A stretch of DNA of 56,050 bases, from NCBI RefSeq assembly GCF_001434575.1, contig NZ_AZDA01000133.1, positions 1 to 56,050 of the forward strand, read 5' to 3'. Below are positions 1-10,734 of the stretch, piece by piece (the first letter of the stretch is position 1; each line of letters opens with the position of its first letter). This DNA is from Loigolactobacillus bifermentans DSM 20003 (GTDB taxonomy: Bacteria; Bacillota; Bacilli; Lactobacillales; Lactobacillaceae). The notes beneath the pieces were generated by a model. It was not told the DNA's origin and searched no databases. It was given only the letters and a program-made list of their open reading frames with translations. The position numbers were made by a program, and so were the translations under genes.

Positions 1-1
1 T

Positions 2-334
2 TGGTCCAAAATTGTGCGGTATGCCGATATTAAACCTCGTATGAATAATTCGGGTACCACATTGTGGCGGACCACGACGATTTTAACGTCAGCGCAAAAG
101 CAAGCCTTCATGGCACAGTATGCGCGTGTGGCACAGGTATCGGAAGCACAAGTCGTGGCAAATGTGCAGCGCTATATGCCGTTTTTGTTATTACGTGCCT
201 TAGCCTGGTGCGCCCGCTTATTGGTGGATTATGAGCACAAACCAATTCAAAATCCTGAGATTTACGCCAAATGTCAACAGTATTTGCAGCCGGAATTTCT
301 GACGCAATTGTTTAAAAAGAACGGAATTGATTAA
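2..334 (+). CDS. Unidentified protein, C-terminal part only (cut by window edge)
   Basis: The frame is open from base 2, so the gene starts outside the window; the GTG at 14 and the ATG at 41 are probably internal. About 110 C-terminal residues are visible. They are soluble and helical, with the stretch RYMPFLLLRALAWCARLL near the middle and no cysteine cluster or catalytic signature that I can name. The stop overlaps the start of the next gene (TAATG at 332-336), so it belongs to the same operon as the selenium genes. A phosphotransferase (APH-like) C-terminus is a weak possibility from general appearance only. I do not assign a function. Confidence 0.6.
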   Translation, partial: WSKIVRYADIKPRMNNSGTTLWRTTTILTSAQKQAFMAQYARVAQVSEAQVVANVQRYMPFLLLRALAWCARLLVDYEHKPIQNPEIYAKCQQYLQPEFLTQLFKKNGID

Positions 335-975
335 TGGTGAAGCAAGCATATCTTATTTTTTCAAAGGTCCCAACGGCTGGTTTCTCCAAAACACGTTTAA
401 GCCCGGCCTATTCACCGCAAGTAGCGGCTGAGATCCAGGCGGTTTTATTACAGCGATTGCTGACGGCGGCTTTGCGGTTACCAGCAACGCAAGTCTTTCT
501 GGCTTATCGTGCGGCTAATGCTACTGCTAGTACGGCATTTTTGGCACAATTACCGGCAGCTGTAACAGCTTTTCCGCAAGTTAAGGCGTCACTGGGAACA
601 GCAATGGCAGTGGCCTTGCAACAGGTGCGTCAGCAAGGGTATCAGCAGGTGGTGTTAACCGGCAGTGATATTCCAGGCTTAACCACCGCCATTTTGCAAC
701 AAGCATTTGATCAATTGACAGCGCATTCGGTGGTGCTCGGACCTAGTCCAGATGGTGGTTATTATTTGATTGGGAGCCGGCAATTGGATTTAACGCCTAT
801 TTTAGAAGCAGAGACAGCTTGGAGCACGGATAGTGTATTGAAAGTAACTCAAAATAGATTAGAACAGCGTGCCGTGACCTATGCCATGTTGCCAACTTTA
901 GGCGATATTGACACAGCGGCCGATTTAAAAAGAGAGGGCGGCGATTTATTTGCCACAAGTCATTTTAGATTGTGA
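334..975 (+). CDS. TIGR04282/DUF2064-type glycosyltransferase-like protein (rSAM/selenodomain-associated transferase 1)
   Basis: 213 aa. The N-terminus carries the family pattern IFSKVPTAGFSKTRLSP, the counterpart of the nucleotide-binding loop in nucleotidyl-/glycosyltransferase A folds. GSDIPGL in the middle is the likely metal/nucleotide-binding acidic motif, and LGPSPDGGYYLIG is also typical of the family. The family name records repeated co-occurrence with radical-SAM and selenium-associated genes, which fits this operon; the substrate is unknown. The start ATG overlaps the previous stop by one base, and the 3' end overlaps the nucleoside hydrolase by 26 bases, suggesting translational coupling. 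Family call is good; role in selenium metabolism is inferred from context only. Confidence 0.75.
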   Translation: MVKQAYLIFSKVPTAGFSKTRLSPAYSPQVAAEIQAVLLQRLLTAALRLPATQVFLAYRAANATASTAFLAQLPAAVTAFPQVKASLGTAMAVALQQVRQQGYQQVVLTGSDIPGLTTAILQQAFDQLTAHSVVLGPSPDGGYYLIGSRQLDLTPILEAETAWSTDSVLKVTQNRLEQRAVTYAMLPTLGDIDTAADLKREGGDLFATSHFRL

Positions 976-1798
976 TAATACTTTTGGTTTAGCAGGGCAT
1001 GATATTGATGATGGCCTTGCGTTAGCCCATTTATTACGAATGCCAACCGTAGATGTGCTAGGGGTGACCTTAACTTATGGGAATGGGACGTTAGCACAGG
1101 TGACGCAACAGACCAAGCTGTTATGGGAAGCGGCTGATTTAGAGCTACCGTTTTATGTTGGGGCCAGTAGTGAAGTGGATGTAACATCTGCCGCGGTGCG
1201 TTATTTAGTGAAAATAGTGCGCCAACACCCACAAGAAATCACCATTGTTGCGACAGGTTCGTTAACCAATCTAGCAGCAGCGCAGCAATTATGGCCTGGC
1301 TTTTTAAAACAAGTCAAACAATTATATATAATGGGCGGTGCGTTTGGGCCGATGACCATGGGACAACAAGTGGTAGATGAATTAAACTTTTCAGTCAATG
1401 ATACAGCTGTGAAAACAGTGTTAAGTGCAGCAGAACGACCAATTATCGTGAGTGGTTCGTATATCCATGACTTTGTGACGTTCTGGCCTGATCAGCCGAC
1501 AAATTGGCTGGCTGAACAAATTCAAAATTGGCAAGTTTATAACGAAAAGCAGTGGCAATTGGCAGGGTTTATTAATTGGGACGGCATGACCGCCACTAGT
1601 TTGACCCAGCCTGACTTATTCACTTGGCGGGATGAAACCGTTGAATTAAATGCGACGGCTTTAGAAAAAGGGTTGCTGATTCCAAAAGCAACGGGAACTT
1701 GTCAGTTGAAGTTAGTCACTGGTATTCAAAATCCGGCAGCATTAACCGCCAGTTTACTAGCAGATATGCACTTTTTAACAGCGCAAGCGGAGGGATAA
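950..1798 (+). CDS. Inosine/uridine-type nucleoside hydrolase
   Basis: 282 aa from a TTG start at 950, which gives the natural family N-terminus (PQVILDCDNT). The N-terminal acidic cluster DCDNTFGLAGHDIDDGLAL is the calcium-binding aspartate motif of the IUNH family, here with a short insertion between its two halves. VATGSLTNLAAA and YIMGGAF are further family motifs. These enzymes cleave the N-glycosidic bond of ribonucleosides. It lies between the TIGR04282 protein and selD with no promoter gap, which is unusual company for a salvage enzyme. It may act on a selenium- or sulfur-containing nucleoside, but that is speculation; the family assignment itself is firm. Confidence 0.8.
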   Translation: MPQVILDCDNTFGLAGHDIDDGLALAHLLRMPTVDVLGVTLTYGNGTLAQVTQQTKLLWEAADLELPFYVGASSEVDVTSAAVRYLVKIVRQHPQEITIVATGSLTNLAAAQQLWPGFLKQVKQLYIMGGAFGPMTMGQQVVDELNFSVNDTAVKTVLSAAERPIIVSGSYIHDFVTFWPDQPTNWLAEQIQNWQVYNEKQWQLAGFINWDGMTATSLTQPDLFTWRDETVELNATALEKGLLIPKATGTCQLKLVTGIQNPAALTASLLADMHFLTAQAEG

Positions 1799-1801
1799 AA
1801 G

Positions 1802-2851
1802 ATGACGGAAACGGCAAAATTTGCAGCAGAGCAATTAATTGTTTGTGGCGGTTGTAATGCCAAAATGGGGCCTGGTAATTTAGCGGATATTTTAGCCAAA
1901 TTACCAGCTAATAAACGTGATGATGCCTTATTAGTCGGCTATGACACCACCGATGATGCAGCAGTTTATCAAATCGATGCGGAGACCGCATTGATCCAAA
2001 CGTTGGACTTCTTTCCATCAATGGTGAATGACCCTTATTTATTCGGTAAAATTGCGGCTACAAATGCGTTAAGCGACGTATTTGCAATGGGTGGCGATGT
2101 GTTGACTGCGTTAAACATTGTTTGCTTCCCAGAAGACATGAATCGGCATATCTTGGAGAAAATTTTGCAAGGTGGTCAAGAAAAGGTCAAGGAAGCCGGG
2201 GGAATTTTAGCTGGCGGCCATTCGATCCATGATCGATTACCTAAGTATGGGTTAGCCGTAACGGGTAAAGTGGCACCGAATCAAATTTTACGCAATGATA
2301 CAGTACGGCCAGGGGATGCCTTGATTTTGACCAAGCCATTAGGGGTGGGTATTGTCACCACCAGTTACAATGCCGGAGCGGCCAGTGAAGCTGCTTTTCA
2401 GCAAGCAGTCGACTCAATGCAAACATTGAACAAATATGCAGCGGATGTGCTGAAGCAACATCAGGTGACCAGCTGTACAGACGTCACCGGCTTTGGCTTG
2501 GCAGGACATTTAAGCGAAATGTTACACGGCCAGTTACAAGCCACCATTGAAGCAGTTGACTTGCCGATGATCCCAGATGCATATACTTGTGCAGAAGAAT
2601 TTTTAGTCACGGCAGGTGGGCAACGCAATCGTAATTTCCTACAAGACAAGATCAAGTTTGAACTAGATGATTATGCACTGGAGGAAATTGTTTACGATCC
2701 ACAAACCTCAGGTGGTTTATTGGCTAGCGTGCCAGCAGATCAGGTGGCCACTGTTGTCGCTGATCTGAAGCAAGCTGGTGTGACAGCAAATTGTATCGGC
2801 CGTGTGACGGAAAAAGCGGCTGATGACCCAATTGAAATAATTGTCAAATAG
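1802..2851 (+). CDS. selD: Selenophosphate synthetase (selenide, water dikinase)
   Basis: 349 aa, normal length. SelD makes selenophosphate, the selenium donor for Sec-tRNA, from selenide and ATP. The active-site motif is CGGCNAKMGPG: Cys18 stands where many homologues have Sec or Cys, and Lys21 is the conserved lysine. YDTTDDAAVY supplies metal-binding aspartates, LAGGHSIHD is the glycine-rich segment, and TDVTGFGLAGHL plus YDPQTSGGLL are further signatures. The start follows GGAGGG at good spacing, three bases after the preceding stop. It uses Cys, so it does not itself require Sec insertion. Followed directly by yedF. Confidence 0.97.
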   Translation: MTETAKFAAEQLIVCGGCNAKMGPGNLADILAKLPANKRDDALLVGYDTTDDAAVYQIDAETALIQTLDFFPSMVNDPYLFGKIAATNALSDVFAMGGDVLTALNIVCFPEDMNRHILEKILQGGQEKVKEAGGILAGGHSIHDRLPKYGLAVTGKVAPNQILRNDTVRPGDALILTKPLGVGIVTTSYNAGAASEAAFQQAVDSMQTLNKYAADVLKQHQVTSCTDVTGFGLAGHLSEMLHGQLQATIEAVDLPMIPDAYTCAEEFLVTAGGQRNRNFLQDKIKFELDDYALEEIVYDPQTSGGLLASVPADQVATVVADLKQAGVTANCIGRVTEKAADDPIEIIVK

Positions 2852-2866
2852 AAAGGACGTTTCAAC

Positions 2867-3544
2867 ATGTCAGAAAACTTAGCGAAAATAGATGCTTTAG
2901 GTCAGGCTTGCCCGATTCCAATTATTCGGACTAAAAAGGCATTGCGCGACCACAACGAAGTCGAGATCTTAGTGGATACAGATGTTTCAACTCAAAATCT
3001 TGAAAAAATGGCCAAACAGTTAAACTATCAGTATGCCATGAAGCAATTGGCACCTGATCAATTTCAAGTCAATATTGCCAAGGCTGGTACCACAACAGCA
3101 ACTGCCCCGACGACACCAGCGGCAACGGTCACTGCTAGTACGCCGACTGATGGCGATGCTGATCAACCACATATTGAAAGCTCAGAAGCCGGCCAAATTC
3201 GGTTGTCACAAGGCTATACGGTGGTGATCAATACCAATACCATGGGTCAAGGTGACGAAAAGTTAGGGCAAACGTTATTAAAGAGTTTTGTCTATTCATT
3301 GACAGAACAGGATGTTTTGCCAGAATACATTTTGTTTTATAACGGTGGCGTTCAGTTAGTTGCTGAAGGCTCTGATTCAGTTGAAGATTTACAGGCTTTA
3401 GCAGCACAAGGGGTTAAGATCTTATCTTGTGGGGTTTGTATCAACTATTTCGATTTAAAAGAAAAAATGGCAGTTGGTGAGATCACCAATATGTTCCGAA
3501 TCGTAGAAATCATGCGCAAGTCGCAACGGTTAGTGCGGCCATAA
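2867..3544 (+). CDS. yedF: YedF-type selenium metabolism protein (TusA-like plus DsrE-like domains)
   Basis: 225 aa. Residues 1-75 form a TusA-like domain with the sulfur/selenium-carrier motif CPIPI near residue 15. A Thr/Ala/Pro-rich linker covers about 80-100, and the C-terminal half is a DsrE/F-like domain containing LSCGVCINYF. YedF proteins of this two-domain form co-occur with selD and are thought to carry selenium; the biochemical role is less well defined. It sits between selD and a second putative carrier (DUF3343), forming a compact delivery module. SD sequence GAAAGGA precedes the ATG. Confidence 0.9.
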   Translation: MSENLAKIDALGQACPIPIIRTKKALRDHNEVEILVDTDVSTQNLEKMAKQLNYQYAMKQLAPDQFQVNIAKAGTTTATAPTTPAATVTASTPTDGDADQPHIESSEAGQIRLSQGYTVVINTNTMGQGDEKLGQTLLKSFVYSLTEQDVLPEYILFYNGGVQLVAEGSDSVEDLQALAAQGVKILSCGVCINYFDLKEKMAVGEITNMFRIVEIMRKSQRLVRP

Positions 3545-3566
3545 TTTTCATAAAGAAGGTTATCAA

Positions 3567-3842
3567 ATGGATCAAGAATTTGGCTTAGTGGTATTTGATG
3601 AAACCCATGAGGCGATTAAAAGTGAGACCCTAGTCAAAGCGCAGCAGATCAAGGCGCGGGCGTTAACCACACCTGGCCAGATCACAGCTGGTTGTGGCTT
3701 AAGCCTACGCTTTGCGCTGGCGGATCTGCCGAAAATCAAGGCCTTTTTACAGGCAGAACAGATCCATTATCAAGCCGTTTATCATGGTGAACGCCATGGT
3801 CTCAAAAGTGACTATCAATTATTGTTTAAATATGAGGGGTAA
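3567..3842 (+). CDS. DUF3343 protein, putative Se/S carrier-like
   Basis: 91 aa. The family signature TTPGQITAGCGLSLRFAL is present with a single central cysteine (Cys43), the probable chalcogen-binding residue. DUF3343 proteins are small and usually sit beside selD, yedF or a SufS/Csd-type enzyme. SD sequence AAGAAGG lies upstream of the ATG at 3567, and selB begins six bases after the stop. A role passing selenium between the desulfurase-like enzyme and SelD is a reasonable inference, not demonstrated by the sequence. Confidence 0.85.
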   Translation: MDQEFGLVVFDETHEAIKSETLVKAQQIKARALTTPGQITAGCGLSLRFALADLPKIKAFLQAEQIHYQAVYHGERHGLKSDYQLLFKYEG

Positions 3843-3848
3843 TCTGAA

Positions 3849-5729
3849 GTGGAACACATTGTCATTGCGACTGCCGGACACGTTGATCACGGCAAAACAA
3901 CTTTGATTCGTGCCTTAACCGGCATTGAAACCGACACAACCAAGGAAGAAAAGCGGCGTGGGCTTACCATTAATTTAGGGTTTGCTTATTTTGATCTGCC
4001 CAGTCATCAACGTGTGGGCATTGTTGATGTTCCAGGGCATGAAAAGTTTCTGAAAAACATGATTGCTGGCTTGTCCGGTATTGATCTCGTGTTACTGGTC
4101 GTCGATGCAGGTGAAGGTGTGATGCCACAAACCCGTGAACACGCCGCTATTTTACGCTTGCTAGGCATCACCAACTTTATTGTGGTATTAACCAAGGTGG
4201 ATACTGTTGACCCAGAAATGTGTGACTTAGCCATTGAGGATATTCAAGAAACCTTTCAAGGGACCGTGATTGCGGATGCACCAATTGTGAAAACAGATGC
4301 AGTCAGTGGCACTGGATTGCCTGAATTAGTACAATTAATGGACCAAACAGTGGCTAAGTTACCGCAACGCCACAATACAGGGCGCCCACGACTGAATGTG
4401 GATCGGGTCTTTTCACTAAAAGGGTTCGGGACAGTTGTGACGGGTACGTTGTTAGATGGGGCGATTCATACTAATGATGACCTAGAAGTTTACCCCAACG
4501 GTGTTTTAGCCCACGTGCGTAACATTCAGGTGCACGATCAAGACGAAACAGTTGCCTTACCGGGCCAGCGTACCGCGTTAAATTTAAATATTAAAGCAGA
4601 TCAAATTGCTCGCGGGGATGTTTTGACTTTACCGGAGAATGTCCAACCAAGCTGGATGCTGGATTTGGCGTTACAAACCTTGGATCTACCAGAAGCGGCA
4701 CTGACCATGCAAGAGCGTGTCCGTTTGTATATTGGCGCCCGAGAAGTGTTAGGGCGAGTCTACCCGTTAGGGACAGATGAGTTAAAACCGAATGAGCAGG
4801 CCTTGGTTCAAATTCGGTTAGAAGAACAAGTTGGCGTTAAAAATGGTGATCGGTTTATTATGCGGACCTATTCGCCAATGCACACGATTGGCGGGGGACA
4901 AGTGTTGGCAGCCAATCCGAAACGGCACCACCGCTATGAACAGCCGATTTTAGAAACCCTGCATATTCGGCAAGCAGGTGAGGCAGCGGCTATTTTAACG
5001 GATTTCATTCATAAGCAGCCTGCTTATTTTGTAACGGTAACGCAAGTGATGGATTTGTTAAATGTAAGTGAAACAGTGGCGACGACTTTACTCACTGCAC
5101 AAGTCACACAAGGAACATTGGTCCAATTTGGTAAAAGCTATGCGGTCCAAGCCAAATTGGTTGCTTTAAAACAACAATTGATCACCTTGTTAGGCGATTT
5201 CCATCAGCATAATCCGCTGGTAGCTGGTTTATCGCGGGCAGAATTAATGTCTCGATTGGCCGATTGGACCCAAACGCAAACCGTAACACCGATTTTTGAT
5301 TATTTTGTGCAACAGCAGGTCATTAAGGAACAGGCTGGCTTAGTAGCTCTAGCTGATTTTGAGCCACAGTTTACGCCGGCACAACAAGCCATTAAACAGG
5401 CCCTATTAGTGCAGTTAACCCAGGCCAATTTGATTCCGTCTGCCATCACTGATTTAGTGGGAACGGATCGCCAAAAGCGACAGGTTTTAAATGGCCTGAT
5501 CAATACGGATGTGGTATTGTTAAACTCGGATTATGTCATGGCAACAACCAGTTACCAACACACCATTGAACGGGTGACACAATTTATTCAGCGTGAAGGT
5601 GAGTTGAGTTTGGCCGATTTTCGGGATATTACCGGTTCTAGCCGGCGCTATGCCATGATGATCTTGGAACGAATGGATAAGGATGGCATTACCCAACGTG
5701 TGGCGAATAAACGGGAATTGAAGGGATAA
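3849..5729 (+). CDS. selB: Selenocysteine-specific elongation factor
   Basis: 626 aa, GTG start. SelB is the EF-Tu-like GTPase that brings Sec-tRNA(Sec) to UGA codons followed by a SECIS hairpin. Visible are G1 (GHVDHGKT, residues 10-17), G3 (DVPGHEKF) and G4 (TKVD), then EF-Tu-like beta-barrel domains, and a C-terminal half of about 250 residues with repeated winged-helix character that binds SECIS RNA. The N-terminus AGHVDHGKTTLIRALTG distinguishes it from EF-Tu. The next gene starts one base after the stop. Its presence with selA and selD implies decoding of UGA as Sec somewhere in this genome; the target genes are not in this window. Confidence 0.96.
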   Translation: MEHIVIATAGHVDHGKTTLIRALTGIETDTTKEEKRRGLTINLGFAYFDLPSHQRVGIVDVPGHEKFLKNMIAGLSGIDLVLLVVDAGEGVMPQTREHAAILRLLGITNFIVVLTKVDTVDPEMCDLAIEDIQETFQGTVIADAPIVKTDAVSGTGLPELVQLMDQTVAKLPQRHNTGRPRLNVDRVFSLKGFGTVVTGTLLDGAIHTNDDLEVYPNGVLAHVRNIQVHDQDETVALPGQRTALNLNIKADQIARGDVLTLPENVQPSWMLDLALQTLDLPEAALTMQERVRLYIGAREVLGRVYPLGTDELKPNEQALVQIRLEEQVGVKNGDRFIMRTYSPMHTIGGGQVLAANPKRHHRYEQPILETLHIRQAGEAAAILTDFIHKQPAYFVTVTQVMDLLNVSETVATTLLTAQVTQGTLVQFGKSYAVQAKLVALKQQLITLLGDFHQHNPLVAGLSRAELMSRLADWTQTQTVTPIFDYFVQQQVIKEQAGLVALADFEPQFTPAQQAIKQALLVQLTQANLIPSAITDLVGTDRQKRQVLNGLINTDVVLLNSDYVMATTSYQHTIERVTQFIQREGELSLADFRDITGSSRRYAMMILERMDKDGITQRVANKRELKG

Positions 5730-5730
5730 C

Positions 5731-6879
5731 ATGATTTATTTAGACAATGGTGCAACAACTTTAAAAAAACCGAAAACTGTAGCAGATGCGGTGTATCAAG
5801 TGCTTGCTAGCAATGCGTATGCCAATCCGTCACGTGGGGCTTACCCAGCCGCAATCAAGGCACATGAGGTGGTTTATCGTTGTCGTCAGTTATTAAAAAC
5901 GTTATTTCATGCGCCTGATGAAGCGTTGATTGCCTTCACCAATAATGCCACTGAAGCCTTGAACTTTGCCATTAAAGGGTTATTAAAACCAGGCGACCAT
6001 GTGATCAGCACCGTGTTTGAGCACAATTCGGTTTTGCGACCGCTCTATCAAATGGCCGATCAAGGCGTGACGCATACGTTGATCGGTCTTGATGCTCAAA
6101 CAGGGGCCTTAGCGGTTGACCAGCTGGAACAGGCGCTCCAACCTAATACCAAGATGGTGGTGTGTACCCATGCCTCAAATGTCACCGGTTATCGGTTACC
6201 AATTGATCAGATCAGTGCGTTTTGTCAGCGGCATCAGCTGCTGTTTGTGTTAGACACTTCGCAAACGGCTGGTAATACGCCAATCGATATGCAGGCGCAA
6301 GGGATTGATGTCTTATGTTTTACCGGGCATAAGTCACTTTACGGTCCGCAAGGTACAGGTGGGATTTGTTTCCGGAAAGCTTTACCGATTGAACCCTTGA
6401 TTTCAGGTGGCAGTGGGGTCGACTCTTTTAATCACCATCAGCCAGCTTTCTTGCCGGAGGCACTCGAGGCAGGCACGTTAAATGTTCCAGGCATTGCAGG
6501 CTTGGCGGCAGGTGTTCAATACTGCCTTGATCAAGGCGTCACTCAGCTTGGTCAGCAAGCGGTCAAACTAGCAGATGAATTTGCGGCGGCAATGGCTGAA
6601 TTACCGCTGGTCACCTTGTATTCGCATCCTGAAGTGGACCATGTGGGCACCGTTGCCTTAAACGTCGGGTATGTGAATGCAGCTGAAATTTCGGATTTAT
6701 TAACAGAGCACGACATTGCCACGCGTCCAGGGGCACACTGTGCACCTGTGATTCATGAGACCTTACACACGGTTGAACAAGGTATTGTGCGGTTTTCATT
6801 TTCAAGTTTTAATACGCAGGCGGAAACGCAGGCGGCCATTCAAACCATGCAAGGCATTGTGGCCTTGGCGAAGGGGTAA
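5731..6879 (+). CDS. Cysteine desulfurase / selenocysteine lyase family aminotransferase (class V)
   Basis: 382 aa. PLP-dependent enzyme. The start YLDNGATTLKKP is typical of the Csd/SufS-like subgroup; TNNATEALN binds PLP phosphate, and FTGHKSLYGPQGTGG contains the Schiff-base Lys201 after His200. RPGAHCAPVIH carries the catalytic Cys337 on a short loop, as in group II enzymes. The reaction is removal of sulfur or selenium from cysteine or selenocysteine to form a per(seleno)sulfide. Placed between selB and selA, it most likely supplies selenium for selenophosphate, although a general sulfur role cannot be excluded. The start is one base after the selB stop. Confidence 0.9.
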   Translation: MIYLDNGATTLKKPKTVADAVYQVLASNAYANPSRGAYPAAIKAHEVVYRCRQLLKTLFHAPDEALIAFTNNATEALNFAIKGLLKPGDHVISTVFEHNSVLRPLYQMADQGVTHTLIGLDAQTGALAVDQLEQALQPNTKMVVCTHASNVTGYRLPIDQISAFCQRHQLLFVLDTSQTAGNTPIDMQAQGIDVLCFTGHKSLYGPQGTGGICFRKALPIEPLISGGSGVDSFNHHQPAFLPEALEAGTLNVPGIAGLAAGVQYCLDQGVTQLGQQAVKLADEFAAAMAELPLVTLYSHPEVDHVGTVALNVGYVNAAEISDLLTEHDIATRPGAHCAPVIHETLHTVEQGIVRFSFSSFNTQAETQAAIQTMQGIVALAKG

Positions 6880-6885
6880 TTTTTG

Positions 6886-8274
6886 ATGAAGCAGAATCTT
6901 TTTGCGGCGTTGCCGGCAATGAATACATTGATGCAGTCACCAGCAGTCAAAACATTGTGTGATCAATATGGTTATACGTTGGTCAAACATACAGTGCAAC
7001 ATGTTTTGACGCACTGGCGCAGCCAGATCAAAGCAGGCGATGAAACGGAGCCAACTTTGGCGTTATTGGTGCAACAGATTCAAACGGCGGTTCATGAAAA
7101 AGGGGATATGTCCCTACGGCATGTGGTCAATGCGACTGGCGTGGTACTACACACTAATTTAGGCCGGGCCGTATTAAGTCCAGCGATTCGGGATACGTTT
7201 GAACAAGTCGCATTTGGCTATTCAAATTTGGAATACAATCTCGCTGAGAAACAACGCGGACAGCGGTACCATCATACCGAGCGCTTACTGCAGGAAATTA
7301 CGGGTGCTGAATCTGTTTTAGTTGTGAATAACAATGCAGCAGCCGTGATGTTAGTGTTGGATACCATGGTCCAACAACAAGAAGTGATCGTTTCCCGTGG
7401 TGAACTTGTGGAAATCGGGGATTCTTTCCGAATTCCGGATATTATCACCCGTGGCGGTGGTCTTTTGAAAGAAGTCGGGGCGACCAATAAAACCCACTTG
7501 TACGACTATGAACGGGCGATCACGGAAACCACAGGGGCTTTGTTAAAAGTGCACACCAGTAATTACCGCATGGTCGGGTTTGCGGAGTCAGTGGCCACAG
7601 CAGACTTATCGCAATTAGCACACGCGCACCATTTACCACTGATCAATGATCTTGGGAGTGGGTTGTTAGTCGATCTACAGCCTTATGGCTTGCCAGCTGA
7701 ACCTTTGATCAAAGAGGAATTAAAGTATGCCGATGTCGTGACATTCTCAGGCGATAAGCTACTAGGGGGACCGCAAGCTGGTATTATTGCCGGTAAAAAG
7801 GAATACGTGGATCAGATGAAGCACAATCAGTTAACGCGGGCGTTACGGGTGGATAAGCTGACCCTAACAGCTTTAGAGGCAACCTTACACCTTTATCAAA
7901 ATCCAGATAAATTACTAGAAAATGTGCCAACATTACGCATGATCACCCAATCAGAAGCCACTTTGGCCAACCATGCGGTTGATTTCATGCAACGCTTATT
8001 GGAATTGCCAACGTTACAGGTCAGCCACATTAAAGGGGAATCCCAAGTAGGCGGTGGTTCTTTCCCAGGGTATACGTTGCCGACTTATTTGGTCACGGTG
8101 ACCACACCGTTGTATTCTGCTACAAAGCTGGAAGCAGCGCTACGCTTAGGCAAACCGGCAATTGTCGCACGAGTTGAAAATGACCAGTTGCAATTTGATG
8201 TGCGAACCTTAACGGCCACTGATGATGAACTGATCATTCAACGTTTAAAGGAGTTGGTTAGCCGCGATGCTTAG
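6886..8274 (+). CDS. selA: L-seryl-tRNA(Sec) selenium transferase
   Basis: 462 aa, full length. SelA converts Ser-tRNA(Sec) to Sec-tRNA(Sec) using selenophosphate in a PLP-dependent decameric complex. Evidence: NATGVVLHTNLGRA in the N-terminal part, VNNNAAAVML for PLP-phosphate binding, SRGELVEIG, and TFSGDKLLGGPQAG with the PLP lysine at about Lys291. The ATG at 6886 is preferred over the TTG three bases earlier because AAGGGG at 6871-6876 is well spaced from it. The 3' end overlaps the next start by 8 bases. With selB and selD this makes a complete protein set for Sec insertion. Confidence 0.96.
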   Translation: MKQNLFAALPAMNTLMQSPAVKTLCDQYGYTLVKHTVQHVLTHWRSQIKAGDETEPTLALLVQQIQTAVHEKGDMSLRHVVNATGVVLHTNLGRAVLSPAIRDTFEQVAFGYSNLEYNLAEKQRGQRYHHTERLLQEITGAESVLVVNNNAAAVMLVLDTMVQQQEVIVSRGELVEIGDSFRIPDIITRGGGLLKEVGATNKTHLYDYERAITETTGALLKVHTSNYRMVGFAESVATADLSQLAHAHHLPLINDLGSGLLVDLQPYGLPAEPLIKEELKYADVVTFSGDKLLGGPQAGIIAGKKEYVDQMKHNQLTRALRVDKLTLTALEATLHLYQNPDKLLENVPTLRMITQSEATLANHAVDFMQRLLELPTLQVSHIKGESQVGGGSFPGYTLPTYLVTVTTPLYSATKLEAALRLGKPAIVARVENDQLQFDVRTLTATDDELIIQRLKELVSRDA

Positions 8275-8662
8275 ACGAATTGGACGCTGTGTCATTTTGA
8301 TTTTACAGTTGCTTCTGGTTGGCTTACCCTTTTTATTTCGCGATCTGTTCAACACCCATTTAGGGTTTATGCGGGAAATTTTATTTCTCAACGAAAATTA
8401 TCCGATTTGGCTGATTTGGATCGTCGCTGGCGTGGTTTTATTTGTGACCATCGGTTTACTAGGCTGGGCCCACCATCGCATTCGAAGCAAGTATGATTGG
8501 CTCGAATGGTGCTGGCTGGCGCTATTAGCAGTCTTATTAGTGGGTATCGGTGCTTATTTCTGGCACGCACCTGAATTTATTTATGATCTATTGGTGTTAA
8601 GCGGTGCAGTGTTCAGTCAATTGATTGTTGTGAAATTACATTTTAAAAAGGTTGTTGTCTAA
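8267..8662 (+). CDS. Small integral membrane protein of unknown function in the selenium operon
   Basis: 131 aa. Four hydrophobic segments are visible at about residues 7-24, 46-66, 80-98 and 105-124, separated by short basic or mixed loops (for example WAHHRIRSKYDWLEW). No conserved catalytic motif is apparent, and its only cysteines are near the ends of membrane segments. It overlaps selA by 8 bases and is followed by TAATG at the rhodanese gene, so it is co-translated with selenium genes. Transport of a selenium compound or anchoring of the rhodanese are possible roles; I do not recognise the family. Confidence 0.7.
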   Translation: MLRRIGRCVILILQLLLVGLPFLFRDLFNTHLGFMREILFLNENYPIWLIWIVAGVVLFVTIGLLGWAHHRIRSKYDWLEWCWLALLAVLLVGIGAYFWHAPEFIYDLLVLSGAVFSQLIVVKLHFKKVVV

Positions 8663-8688
8663 TGTTTTGGCGTTGGGAGAAAATCAAA

Positions 8689-8985
8689 ATGAATATCACG
8701 GTGACAGAACTGGCCCGACGGTTACAACAGCCCATTCAGTTGCTGGATGTGCGCCGACCAGATGAATATTTTGCGGGGCACATTGACCAAGCCCTCAATG
8801 TGCCCTACGAAGTGATCCGTTATTTACCTGCCCAAATTTCTAAGACACAGCCCGTTTATCTGATCTGTACTGGCGGTGTCCGAAGTGTTTGGGCAGCTAA
8901 AAAGCTGCAACAGCAAGGCTACCAAGTGATTAATGTGCTTGCTGGTATGGACGCTTGGACAGGCCCAGTTGTCACTGGTCAATAA
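8689..8985 (+). CDS. Single-domain rhodanese-like protein
   Basis: 98 aa from ATG 8689, which has GGGAG nine bases upstream; an earlier in-frame ATG at 8662 overlaps the previous stop and would add nine residues. The rhodanese fold is shown by LLDVRRPDEYFAGHI, then the active loop CTGGVRS with catalytic Cys60 followed by Arg65, and WAAKKLQQQGYQVINVLAGMDAW. Rhodaneses carry sulfur or selenium as a cysteine persulfide or perselenide. As the last gene of the selenium operon it is a candidate selenium carrier, although many such proteins handle sulfur in general. Confidence 0.85.
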   Translation: MNITVTELARRLQQPIQLLDVRRPDEYFAGHIDQALNVPYEVIRYLPAQISKTQPVYLICTGGVRSVWAAKKLQQQGYQVINVLAGMDAWTGPVVTGQ

Positions 8986-9049: not shown

Positions 9050-9275
9050 ACAATTAAATAAGTTATTTGATTGGACTAGTAAAGAGGCACTCGATTTGCC
9101 AGGAAAGAGCAGTTGCTGAGAAGCTCAAAAATCGATCTCTTGAACCTACCATGTTGAAATGCAGGGATAAACCTGCACGTTTAATTAAGCGCTAATTAAT
9201 TTTGAGATGTAAAGCATTGCTTTGAATGAGGGTGGTACCGCCTAATGGGTCCCTCAAATAAGCAATGCTTTTTAT
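9050..9275 (+). promoter_or_regulatory. T-box leader controlling proS
   Basis: The conserved T-box sequence TGGTACCGC lies at 9234-9242 within AGGGTGGTACCGC. It is embedded between AAAGCATTGCTT (9212-9223) and its complement AGCAATGCTTT plus a T-run (9262-9274), the competing terminator. Upstream is a long stem-I-like region. GAA-CCT-A at 9142-9148 offers a proline CCU triplet as the specifier, which fits the downstream gene. Uncharged tRNA(Pro) would stabilise the antiterminator and switch proS on. The class is certain; the specifier is my reading without folding. Confidence 0.9.
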
Positions 9276-9303
9276 TTTCCACAAAAAATATGAGGTGAAC
9301 AGA

Positions 9304-10734
9304 ATGGCAAAAGACTTTGTAAAAGAAATTACCGCACGTGATGATGACTTCGCAAAATGGTATACCGACACTGTATTAAAGGCAAAAATGGCAGATTATT
9401 CACCAGTTCGTGGTGCCATGATCATCTTGCCTTACGGCTATGAAATTTGGGAAAGCATTAAGCATAGTTTTGACAAATTGATCAAGGCAACCGGCCATGA
9501 AGACATGGTCATGCCGATGCTGATCCCAGAATCATTGTTGCAAAAAGAACAAGAGTTGATCAACGGTTTTGCCCCTGAAGTCGCTTGGGTGACCCAAGGT
9601 GGGACTGAACAGTTACAAGAACGCTTAGCCGTTCGACCAACCTCAGAAGTGTTATTCAGTGATTATTATGCGAAAGTGGTTCATTCATACCGCGACTTGC
9701 CATTGAAGTACAACCAATGGGTAAGTGTCATGCGTTGGGAAAAGACCACACGGCCATTTTTGCGGACCTCAGAATTCTTCTGGCAAGAAGGCCATACGGT
9801 GCATGCAACTGCAGCTGAATCGCATGCAGAAACCTTACAGATCTTAGATGACTATGAAAAAGTGGTCAGCGAGTACTTAGCCATTCCAGTGGTAAAAGGG
9901 CAAAAGACTGAAAGTGAAAAATTCGCCGGTGCAAAAGAAACCTTCACGTTAGAATCAATGATGGCAGATGGTCGTGCCTTACAGTCGGCCACTTCACATG
10001 ACTTTGGGGATAAATTTGCTAAGGCATTTGACATTAAATACTTGGATAAAAATGGTGAACAACAATATGGTAACCAAACGTCATGGGGCTTGTCGACACG
10101 GATCATTGGCGGCTTGATCATGGTTCACGGTGACGATCGTGGTTTGAAATTACCACCTAAGGTTGCACCAACTCAAGTTGAAATTATTCCAATTGCACCA
10201 AATGATGACGTGCTTGCCAAAGCTGACGAGATTCAAGCAGCATTAAAGGCTGCTGGTATCCGGGTTGATATGGATCATAGTGATAAGAAGCCAGGTTGGA
10301 AGTTTAGCGAATACGAAATGCGCGGTGTGCCAGTTCGTTTGGAAATCGGCCCACGTGACCTTGCCAACGCCCAAGTTGTTTTGGCACGTCGGGACACAGG
10401 CGAAAAGACCAGCGTTGCCATTGCTGATTTAGCGACTGAAGTACCTGCCTTGTTAGATGCCATCCAAAAGAACCTTTACCAGCAGGCTGCTGAACATTTA
10501 GCCAGCCACACTTATACCGCAACAACCTTTGATGAATTCAAAGAAAAACTAGGCAACCACAATGGTTTTGTCAAAGCAATGTGGTGTGGGGATGAAGCTT
10601 GCGAAAAGGCAGTTAAGAAAGAAACCAAAGCAGGTTCACGTTGTATCCCATTTGAACAAGAACATTTAAGCGACCATTGTATCTATTGTGGCAAACCAGC
10701 TGATAAGATGGTGGTTTGGGCACAAGCTTACTAG
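9304..10734 (+). CDS. proS: Prolyl-tRNA synthetase, eukaryote/archaea-like type
   Basis: 476 aa from ATG 9304, preceded by GAGGTGA; an upstream in-frame TTG in the terminator region is rejected. Class II motifs: motif 2 around MRWEKTTRPFLRTSEFFWQEGHT and motif 3 around GLSTRIIGGLIMVHGDDRGL. The anticodon-binding domain follows (PTQVEIIPI onward), and the C-terminal extension contains WCGDEACEKAVKKE and DHCIYCGKPA, a Cys-containing zinc-like tail. The absence of the INS editing domain and the short N-terminus identify the type-3 enzyme rather than the longer typical bacterial ProS. It charges tRNA(Pro) in the cytoplasm and is controlled by the T-box. Confidence 0.95.
   Translation: MAKDFVKEITARDDDFAKWYTDTVLKAKMADYSPVRGAMIILPYGYEIWESIKHSFDKLIKATGHEDMVMPMLIPESLLQKEQELINGFAPEVAWVTQGGTEQLQERLAVRPTSEVLFSDYYAKVVHSYRDLPLKYNQWVSVMRWEKTTRPFLRTSEFFWQEGHTVHATAAESHAETLQILDDYEKVVSEYLAIPVVKGQKTESEKFAGAKETFTLESMMADGRALQSATSHDFGDKFAKAFDIKYLDKNGEQQYGNQTSWGLSTRIIGGLIMVHGDDRGLKLPPKVAPTQVEIIPIAPNDDVLAKADEIQAALKAAGIRVDMDHSDKKPGWKFSEYEMRGVPVRLEIGPRDLANAQVVLARRDTGEKTSVAIADLATEVPALLDAIQKNLYQQAAEHLASHTYTATTFDEFKEKLGNHNGFVKAMWCGDEACEKAVKKETKAGSRCIPFEQEHLSDHCIYCGKPADKMVVWAQAY

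Follow-up and report, generated by a model that had tools for sequence, protein, structure and literature searches.

At the beginning of the 56,050-nucleotide stretch of DNA analysed here (the window), which is the entire contig C84 (NZ_AZDA01000133.1) of Loigolactobacillus bifermentans DSM 20003 (genome of 3.13 Mb in 147 contigs), lies an operon for selenocysteine (Sec) decoding, which very probably serves a D-proline reductase encoded on another contig. Eleven open reading frames (ORFs) span positions 2-8985, all on the plus strand: a kinase gene fragment, a TIGR04282 gene, a nucleoside hydrolase gene, selD, yedF, a DUF3343 gene, selB, a gene for an EF2568-type lyase, selA, a membrane protein gene and a rhodanese gene (Table 1). 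The successive gaps are -1, -26, 3, 15, 22, 6, 1, 3, -8 and -1 bases. Downstream there is a proS-like ORF (9265-10734), followed by ribosomal protein genes (named by eye).

The frames of SelA, SelB and SelD are intact and all three proteins score over the curated cut-offs. A preliminary description of this DNA, made from the sequence alone, had placed selD, selB, selA, yedF, the DUF3343 gene and the lyase gene in one tight operon of a Lactobacillaceae genome; all of them are at that place and pass curated models, and the family assignment holds. The lyase also matches the SclA model, at 332.9 bits, below the cut-off of 525. The same description was right that SelD is of the Cys form (CGGCNAKMGPG, with Cys where Alloiococcus SelD has TGA) and that the listed genes contain no in-frame TGA, as none was observed in the eleven ORFs. 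No tRNA genes were found in the window. In a look for a target inside it, three minus-strand frames (at least 120 codons) were observed that hold a single TGA with at least 40 codons on each side.

Table 1. Features at the beginning of the window (bit scores are followed by the cut-off of the respective model, where available).
Feature	Positions	Strand	Evidence
IS1380-family insertion sequence end; assembly break, apparently within the kinase gene	1..55	.	recurs at the end of contig C92 and on plasmids
Kinase reading frame; from about base 56, C-terminal part of an APH-family kinase gene	2..334	+	by-eye comparison with the intact L. iwatensis kinase, L009:5463-6464
TIGR04282/DUF2064 CofC-like protein, module part	334..975	+	168.4 bits, cut-off 134
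Nucleoside hydrolase (IU_nuc_hydro), module part	950..1798	+	PF01156, 121.1 bits, cut-off 34.2
selD, selenophosphate synthetase, Cys form	1802..2851	+	TIGR00476, 376.6 bits, cut-off 125
yedF, TusA-like selenium metabolism protein	2867..3544	+	TIGR03527, 205.4 bits, cut-off 110
DUF3343 / putative Se-S carrier	3567..3842	+	PF11823, 73.4 bits, cut-off 25
selB, selenocysteine-specific elongation factor	3849..5729	+	TIGR00475, 357.6 bits, cut-off 242.25
Lyase, class V aminotransferase-fold cysteine desulfurase / possible selenocysteine lyase, EF2568 type	5731..6879	+	TIGR01977, 388.7 bits, cut-off 377
selA	6883..8274	+	TIGR00474, 579.3 bits, cut-off 267.9
Membrane protein, 3' module part	8267..8662	+	homologues follow nucleoside hydrolase genes elsewhere (8 of 11 further stretches with the module)
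Single-domain rhodanese, last module gene	8662..8985	+	PF00581, 56.3 bits; in those 8 stretches a homologue comes after the membrane protein gene

Proline reductase as the probable target of decoding

When the genome was searched for the GrdB family (PF07355), a single place was found, on contig C100, and this is PrdB. The gene run on C100 consists of prdA, a CBO2463-domain gene, prdB, prdD, a prdE-like gene, a proline-racemase-family gene and a TauE-family gene. PrdA (TIGR04480, 939.2 bits; cut-off 700), PrdB (TIGR04483, 401.8 bits with the TGA read as Cys; cut-off 300) and PrdD (339.5 bits; cut-off 320) exceed the respective cut-offs, and PrdA has Thr-Cys, with the Cys at position 420, which we take to be the cleavage site of the proprotein. 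In prdB, there is an in-frame TGA at codon 151, so that the product reads ...MTAG-U-GTCHRTAV...; a passage of PMC13188914 gives UxxC as the Sec motif of D-proline reductase. Except for this TGA, the frames of SelD, YedF, SelB, SelA, PrdA, PrdB and PrdD are open. The preliminary description had seen neither a target nor a purpose for the system, and this is superseded by the TGA-containing prdB, which is invisible from the window because the assembly break splits the cluster between C100 and the window.

The context of the TGA codon was compared in 12 distinct lactobacillar TGA-type prdB genes (13 rows read, two of them from one genome). Codon 151 is TGA in 12 of the 13 lactobacillar genomes read and TGC in the thirteenth (a fourteenth row is the second copy of G287). 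The TGA-type genes contain CUGCCGUGAUCGUGCAG, which folds into a stem of six pairs (a seventh is present in six rows) that closes a four-base loop and carries a bulged U; this hairpin begins 16 bases past the UGA. Codons +7 to +11 past the TGA are synonymously invariant in the 12 distinct sequences, while gene-wide only 12 of the 152 scored codons are invariant, and a run of five invariant codons anywhere in prdB arises in a fraction of 0.00024 of shuffles. The TGC-type gene (genome G224) lacks the hairpin sequence. The hairpin is thus a candidate selenocysteine insertion sequence (SECIS), although an Rfam search of its region gave two irrelevant sub-threshold matches only; its fold energy was rejected as SECIS evidence, being not significant.

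The tRNA-Sec gene, selC, was found in the genome search at C109:28191-28283 (67.4 bits; gathering score 47) and is called at the same site by ARAGORN, while seven other places match the Sec-tRNA model, all below the cut-off. The preliminary description had proposed such a scan, with the lack of selC anywhere in the genome taken as a sign of decay or of a non-Sec use of selenophosphate; selC is present. As had been expected, both selC (C109) and the predicted selenoprotein gene prdB are elsewhere, the latter on C100, in the part of the gene cluster that lies past the break in the assembly. On C109, the neighbours of selC encode an Xaa-Pro-type peptidase, an ornithine cyclodeaminase-family protein, PrdC (603.8 bits, cut-off 490; no internal stop), a POT-like transporter (by eye) and a secreted two-rhodanese protein. 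Along this contig (L047:10199-20000), fusA is followed by the proline-supply genes, prdC and selC. Since fusA is on C109 and rpsJ in the window, and the two genes are 0.5-1.0 kb apart in six of seven congeners (on separate contigs in the seventh), we infer that C109 is located just upstream. The different arrangement in the congeners suggests an island at the fusA/rpsJ junction in this genome. Contamination was rejected: the C109 fusA is 93-95% identical to its counterpart in each of the seven congeners, while nothing else in the genome matches at more than 29%, and the guanine-cytosine content is similar in C100 (43.0%), the C109 part (42.7%) and the window (44.1%).

The first 55-56 bases of the window recur at the end of contig C92, as well as on plasmids of Loigolactobacillus, Pediococcus and Limosilactobacillus, and the end of C100 recurs at the end of C109. 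On Pediococcus damnosus and Loigolactobacillus backii plasmids, an IS1380-family transposase gene lies between copies of the window start and of the C100 tail, and TACCA is present on the outer side of the element at both C100 (L046:15978-16030) and the window. C100 ends in the N-terminal part of a kinase gene, the C-terminal part of which starts the window; the fragment at 2..334 itself has no family match, and its intact relative matches PF01636. In Loigolactobacillus iwatensis, the kinase gene is intact, and the prd genes, the module described below and the sel genes are continuous. Because of the two kinase halves and the unbroken L. iwatensis order, prdB should end approximately 16 kb before selB (excluding the insertion sequence). 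The link between C100 and the window is thus well supported, and in this strain an IS1380-family copy apparently interrupts the module kinase gene and breaks the assembly.

The insertion just upstream of the operon could affect read-through transcription, and one might suppose that the machinery is decaying and that selenophosphate has been turned to another use. We consider this very improbable, as the sel and prd products with their open frames exceed the cut-offs of curated models, selC retains its score, and prdB retains both the TGA and the hairpin. Moreover, the broken kinase gene belongs to the embedded module, and the TIGR04282 gene of this module is absent from three of the 12 Sec-decoding genomes described below.

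Taken as a whole, these sequences make us highly confident that the genome encodes a complete bacterial Sec-decoding system serving a Stickland-type D-proline reductase. SelD would produce selenophosphate, with selenium perhaps passed on by the lyase, the DUF3343 protein and YedF; SelA would form Sec-tRNA(Sec), and SelB, bound to the hairpin, would deliver it at the prdB UGA. Proline, derived from peptides or ornithine, would be racemised and then reduced by PrdA/PrdB to 5-aminovalerate, and the electrons would reach PrdA/PrdB through PrdC, proline hence being an anaerobic electron sink.

Several observations weigh against this interpretation. The stability of the hairpin is ordinary (z = -0.53; 60 of 200 shuffles are equally stable), and its six core pairs never vary, hence there is no covariation. 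The best model for the racemase gene is proline racemase, at 513.7 bits, which is under the cut-off of 556. C100, C109 and the window were assembled as three unconnected pieces, and the link of C100 to the window relies on the two gene halves and the L. iwatensis order. Finally, other selenoproteins may exist elsewhere, the possible selenoprotein families searched genome-wide being PF00384, PF07355, PrdC and SelD.

The last point leaves room for an alternative where the sel genes mainly serve some other selenoprotein, for example formate dehydrogenase, and PrdB is incidental. Indeed, the genome has three molybdopterin-family (PF00384) matches, but none of them has an internal stop, and FdhA (contig C63) was rejected as a target, since it has Cys in NCARVCHSATVHG, at the position which we take to be the usual Sec place. 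Neither PrdC nor SelD contains a TGA, the GrdB family search gives PrdB alone, and prdB and selB share a contig in ten other genomes of the family. We regard this alternative as most improbable.

The TauE/SafE-family membrane protein gene (L046:5774-6658) that follows the racemase gene on C100 also follows it in the nine other lactobacillar prd-sel stretches compared, and there is no TauE/SafE match in the stretch with the Cys-type PrdB (L081) or in the stretch with Grd genes (L078). Its product is a possible selenium or sulfur transporter.

Distribution in Lactobacillaceae and parallels elsewhere

We surveyed 397 genomes of the family and 14 control genomes. As weak paralogue matches occur in almost every genome (at E 0.001, SelB in all 397 and tRNA-Sec in 393 of the 397, and each of the two in 13 or 14 of the 14 controls), only matches over the curated cut-offs were counted. 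SelB was observed in 12 genomes and tRNA-Sec in the identical 12, in line with the rarity of Sec decoding stated in the preliminary description. PrdB was also observed in 12 genomes, 11 of which are SelB genomes, each with one TGA. The twelfth PrdB (G224) has TGC, that is Cys, at the Sec codon, and this genome has neither SelB nor tRNA-Sec; its cluster (L057/L081) is prdC-prdA-prdB-racemase. This pattern supports the proposed pairing: SelB and tRNA-Sec are in the same 12 genomes, PrdB with TGA is in 11 of them, and the only PrdB that lacks the TGA belongs to a genome that has no SelB. Fisher tests of co-occurrence ignore kinship and are indicative only.

The twelfth SelB genome, the congener G033, has no PrdB over the cut-off. 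It has GrdA- and GrdB-like frames with one TGA each, approximately 4-5 kb past selA (named by eye). The cluster beside its sel genes (L078:14565-18893) comprises, by eye, a GrdE-like gene, the GrdA-like and GrdB-like genes with TGA and a thioredoxin-reductase-like gene. Six PrdB genomes also carry a second, GrdB-like match that has one TGA and scores below the cut-off.

In ten of the 11 genomes, prdB and selB share a contig, being 5.2-5.5 kb apart in nine of them and 16.2 kb apart in L. iwatensis (G068; SelB at C30:8531-10396); in the eleventh (G000), they are on two contigs. In the midpoint-rooted SelB tree (24 rows), the 13 Lactobacillales rows group together (100/100) and separate from the 11 of Clostridia type. 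Within it, G033 is placed with Companilactobacillus rather than with the other two Loigolactobacillus rows, and the Ligilactobacillus salivarius plasmid row, on a long branch, groups with Bombilactobacillus and G106. Both genes occur together on plasmids of L. salivarius (n = 5 records), Enterococcus (n = 6) and Terrisporobacter (n = 8). Transfer of the prdB-selB pair is likely.

SelD was scored in 52 chosen, non-random genomes of the 397. Sixteen of these exceed the cut-off, namely all 12 SelB genomes plus G050, G081, G108 and G170, which have no SelB. The preliminary description had remarked that selenium traits of lactic acid bacteria are more often of the molybdenum-hydroxylase type; this chosen set contains 12 genomes with both SelD and SelB and 4 with SelD alone. 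In these four, by eye, selD is beside a molybdenum-hydroxylase-like gene, yqeB/yqeC-like genes, yedF and an EF2568-type lyase gene, and three of the four clusters also contain DUF3343. As YedF and the lyase are thus common to these clusters and the operon of the window, which in addition includes a rhodanese, selenium could instead go to the cofactor of a selenium-dependent molybdenum hydroxylase or to tRNA 2-selenouridine. However, none of the 11 ORFs of the operon is yqeB, yqeC or a hydroxylase gene (this search covered the operon), and the operon rhodanese yields only partial MnmH matches, at most 26.3 bits versus cut-offs of at least 219.75 (MnmH was likewise searched in the operon only). 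SelA, SelB and selC are not known to have a role in either trait, and we assign this alternative a very low probability.

The prd-sel pairing itself is already known, with parallels in print. One close counterpart is the cluster of L. iwatensis JCM 18838 (NZ_RHNP01000036.1; L009, L076, L077), which has the identical order of prd, module and sel genes up to proS and a 94% identical PrdB; unlike here, the kinase gene is intact and the cluster is away from fusA and rpsJ, themselves 1.0 kb apart. In region R1 of L. salivarius pMP1046A (sections of PMC4165912; NZ_CP007647.1), prdA, CBO2463, prdB, prdD, the prdE-like gene, the proline racemase gene and TauE/SafE are together with yedF, DUF3343, selB, the lyase gene, selA, prdC, selD and tRNA-Sec; in contrast to our case, the region is on a megaplasmid, has extra yedE and APC permease genes, and contains no embedded module within the stretch read. 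The prd-sel pairing of strain JCM1046 is described in the same sections of PMC4165912, where a table lists prdB as a probable pseudogene; the current record NZ_CP007647.1 names the gene PrdB.

On Enterococcus gilvus pCR1A, the genes for the Xaa-Pro peptidase and peptide transporter, prdC, prdA, CBO2463, prdB, prdD, the prdE-like gene and the racemase gene form one run with selD, yedF, DUF3343, selB, the lyase gene and selA; here, the differences are the location on a 0.9 Mb plasmid and the lack of both tRNA-Sec and the embedded module in the stretch fetched. The 21-kb Terrisporobacter plasmids (excerpts of PMC10564238; NZ_CP154621.1) have prdA, prdB, prdC, prdD, selA, selB, selD, the lyase gene, DUF3343 and selC on one replicon, but these are plasmids of Clostridia with another gene order and a LysR-type regulator. 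The 21.7 kb plasmid NZ_CP154621.1 (L112) is a portable decoding kit with its own target, prdB, as is also in print (PMC10564238). In four surveys and reviews (PMC5029168, PMC13188914, PMC5322559 and PMC2432076), the passages that deal with selenium traits, proline reductase among them, do not name Sec decoding in Lactobacillaceae.

The module around the sel genes

In both L. iwatensis and the genome under study, a block of genes separates the TauE-family gene from selD; on C100 it occupies L046:6940-15253. At that place, this module is absent from the eight other lactobacillar prd-sel stretches compared (L010, L011, L028, L079, L082-L085). Apart from sel genes, it was observed in 11 further 20-kb stretches (L115-L125), all of which contain the genes for an ATP-binding cassette (ABC) transporter, TIGR04283, the kinase, TIGR04282, the nucleoside hydrolase and a VTT protein; the secreted rhodanese is present in ten of them and the YdjY-domain protein in seven. 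As the nucleoside hydrolase and membrane protein genes are successive in eight of these 11 stretches, the sel genes of the window sit inside the module, between these two genes. The membrane protein (8267..8662) has no Pfam or NCBIfam matches. The YdjY-domain protein scores 128.2 bits, the binding protein of the ABC transporter matches PRK11622 (369.9 bits), and the module also holds two VTT-domain proteins and a secreted two-rhodanese protein.

Judged by domain content and by the presumed functions of the E. coli proteins, the YdjY-domain, two VTT-domain, ABC transporter and secreted two-rhodanese proteins correspond to the set encoded by Escherichia coli ydjXYZ-ynjABCD and ynjE. Compared to this set, the module adds TIGR04283, the APH-family kinase, TIGR04282 and the nucleoside hydrolase.

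TIGR04282 exceeds the cut-off in 13 of the 397 genomes, namely nine of the 12 SelB genomes and the same four SelD genomes with molybdenum-hydroxylase-like clusters; these 13 represent three genera and not 13 independent events. SelD is present in all 13, although four have neither SelB nor tRNA-Sec above the cut-off, and three SelD genomes have no TIGR04282 (G033, G105, G106). On plasmids, TIGR04282 has no match at E 1e-12, and 58 plasmid records contain a match to the module binding protein at E 1e-40. In the three plasmid neighbourhoods read, the ABC genes are accompanied by a nucleoside hydrolase gene (n = 1) or by VTT, rhodanese and flavin adenine dinucleotide (FAD)-oxidoreductase genes (n = 2), and no gene is annotated as TIGR04282.

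A tentative explanation, to which we give clearly less than an even chance, is that the module is an unrecognised selenium system, which might either import and process a selenium compound feeding SelD, or make a seleno-sugar or seleno-nucleoside from selenophosphate. It goes together with SelD under either Sec decoding or a molybdenum-hydroxylase selenium cluster, and the Loigolactobacillus sel operon would have become embedded in it. The pattern could also be caused by a shared anaerobic lifestyle, since E. coli ydjXYZ-ynjABCD and ynjE are activated by FNR, an anaerobic regulator (passages of PMC3688515).

Other reports touch upon the components. A paper on DedA and selenite resistance, which bears on a selenium role, appears in the reference list of PMC3836016; a TIGR04282 gene is beside an iodate-reduction island in a section of PMC8801600; in the relevant part of PMC8803141, selABD are in a fitness list, and YdjX and YdjZ show no significant change; and an ynjE knockout was used in persulfide work (excerpt of PMC12042036). 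The corresponding parts of PMC8801600, PMC8803141, PMC3688515, PMC3836016 and PMC12042036 contain no link of the module to SelD. A glycosyltransferase gene associated with yedE in one species, according to a passage of PMC5322559, may be related. Should the SelD-module link hold, it would assign a role to uncharacterised genes now labelled by curated models as arsenosugar biosynthesis glycosyltransferases.

As for the sel operon itself, Sec decoding is not an orphan trait in Lactobacillaceae, as all 12 genomes with the machinery have a Stickland-type reductase gene with an in-frame TGA (PrdB in 11, GrdA/GrdB in one). The proposed pairing predicts selenium-dependent electron disposal on proline in these lactic acid bacteria.

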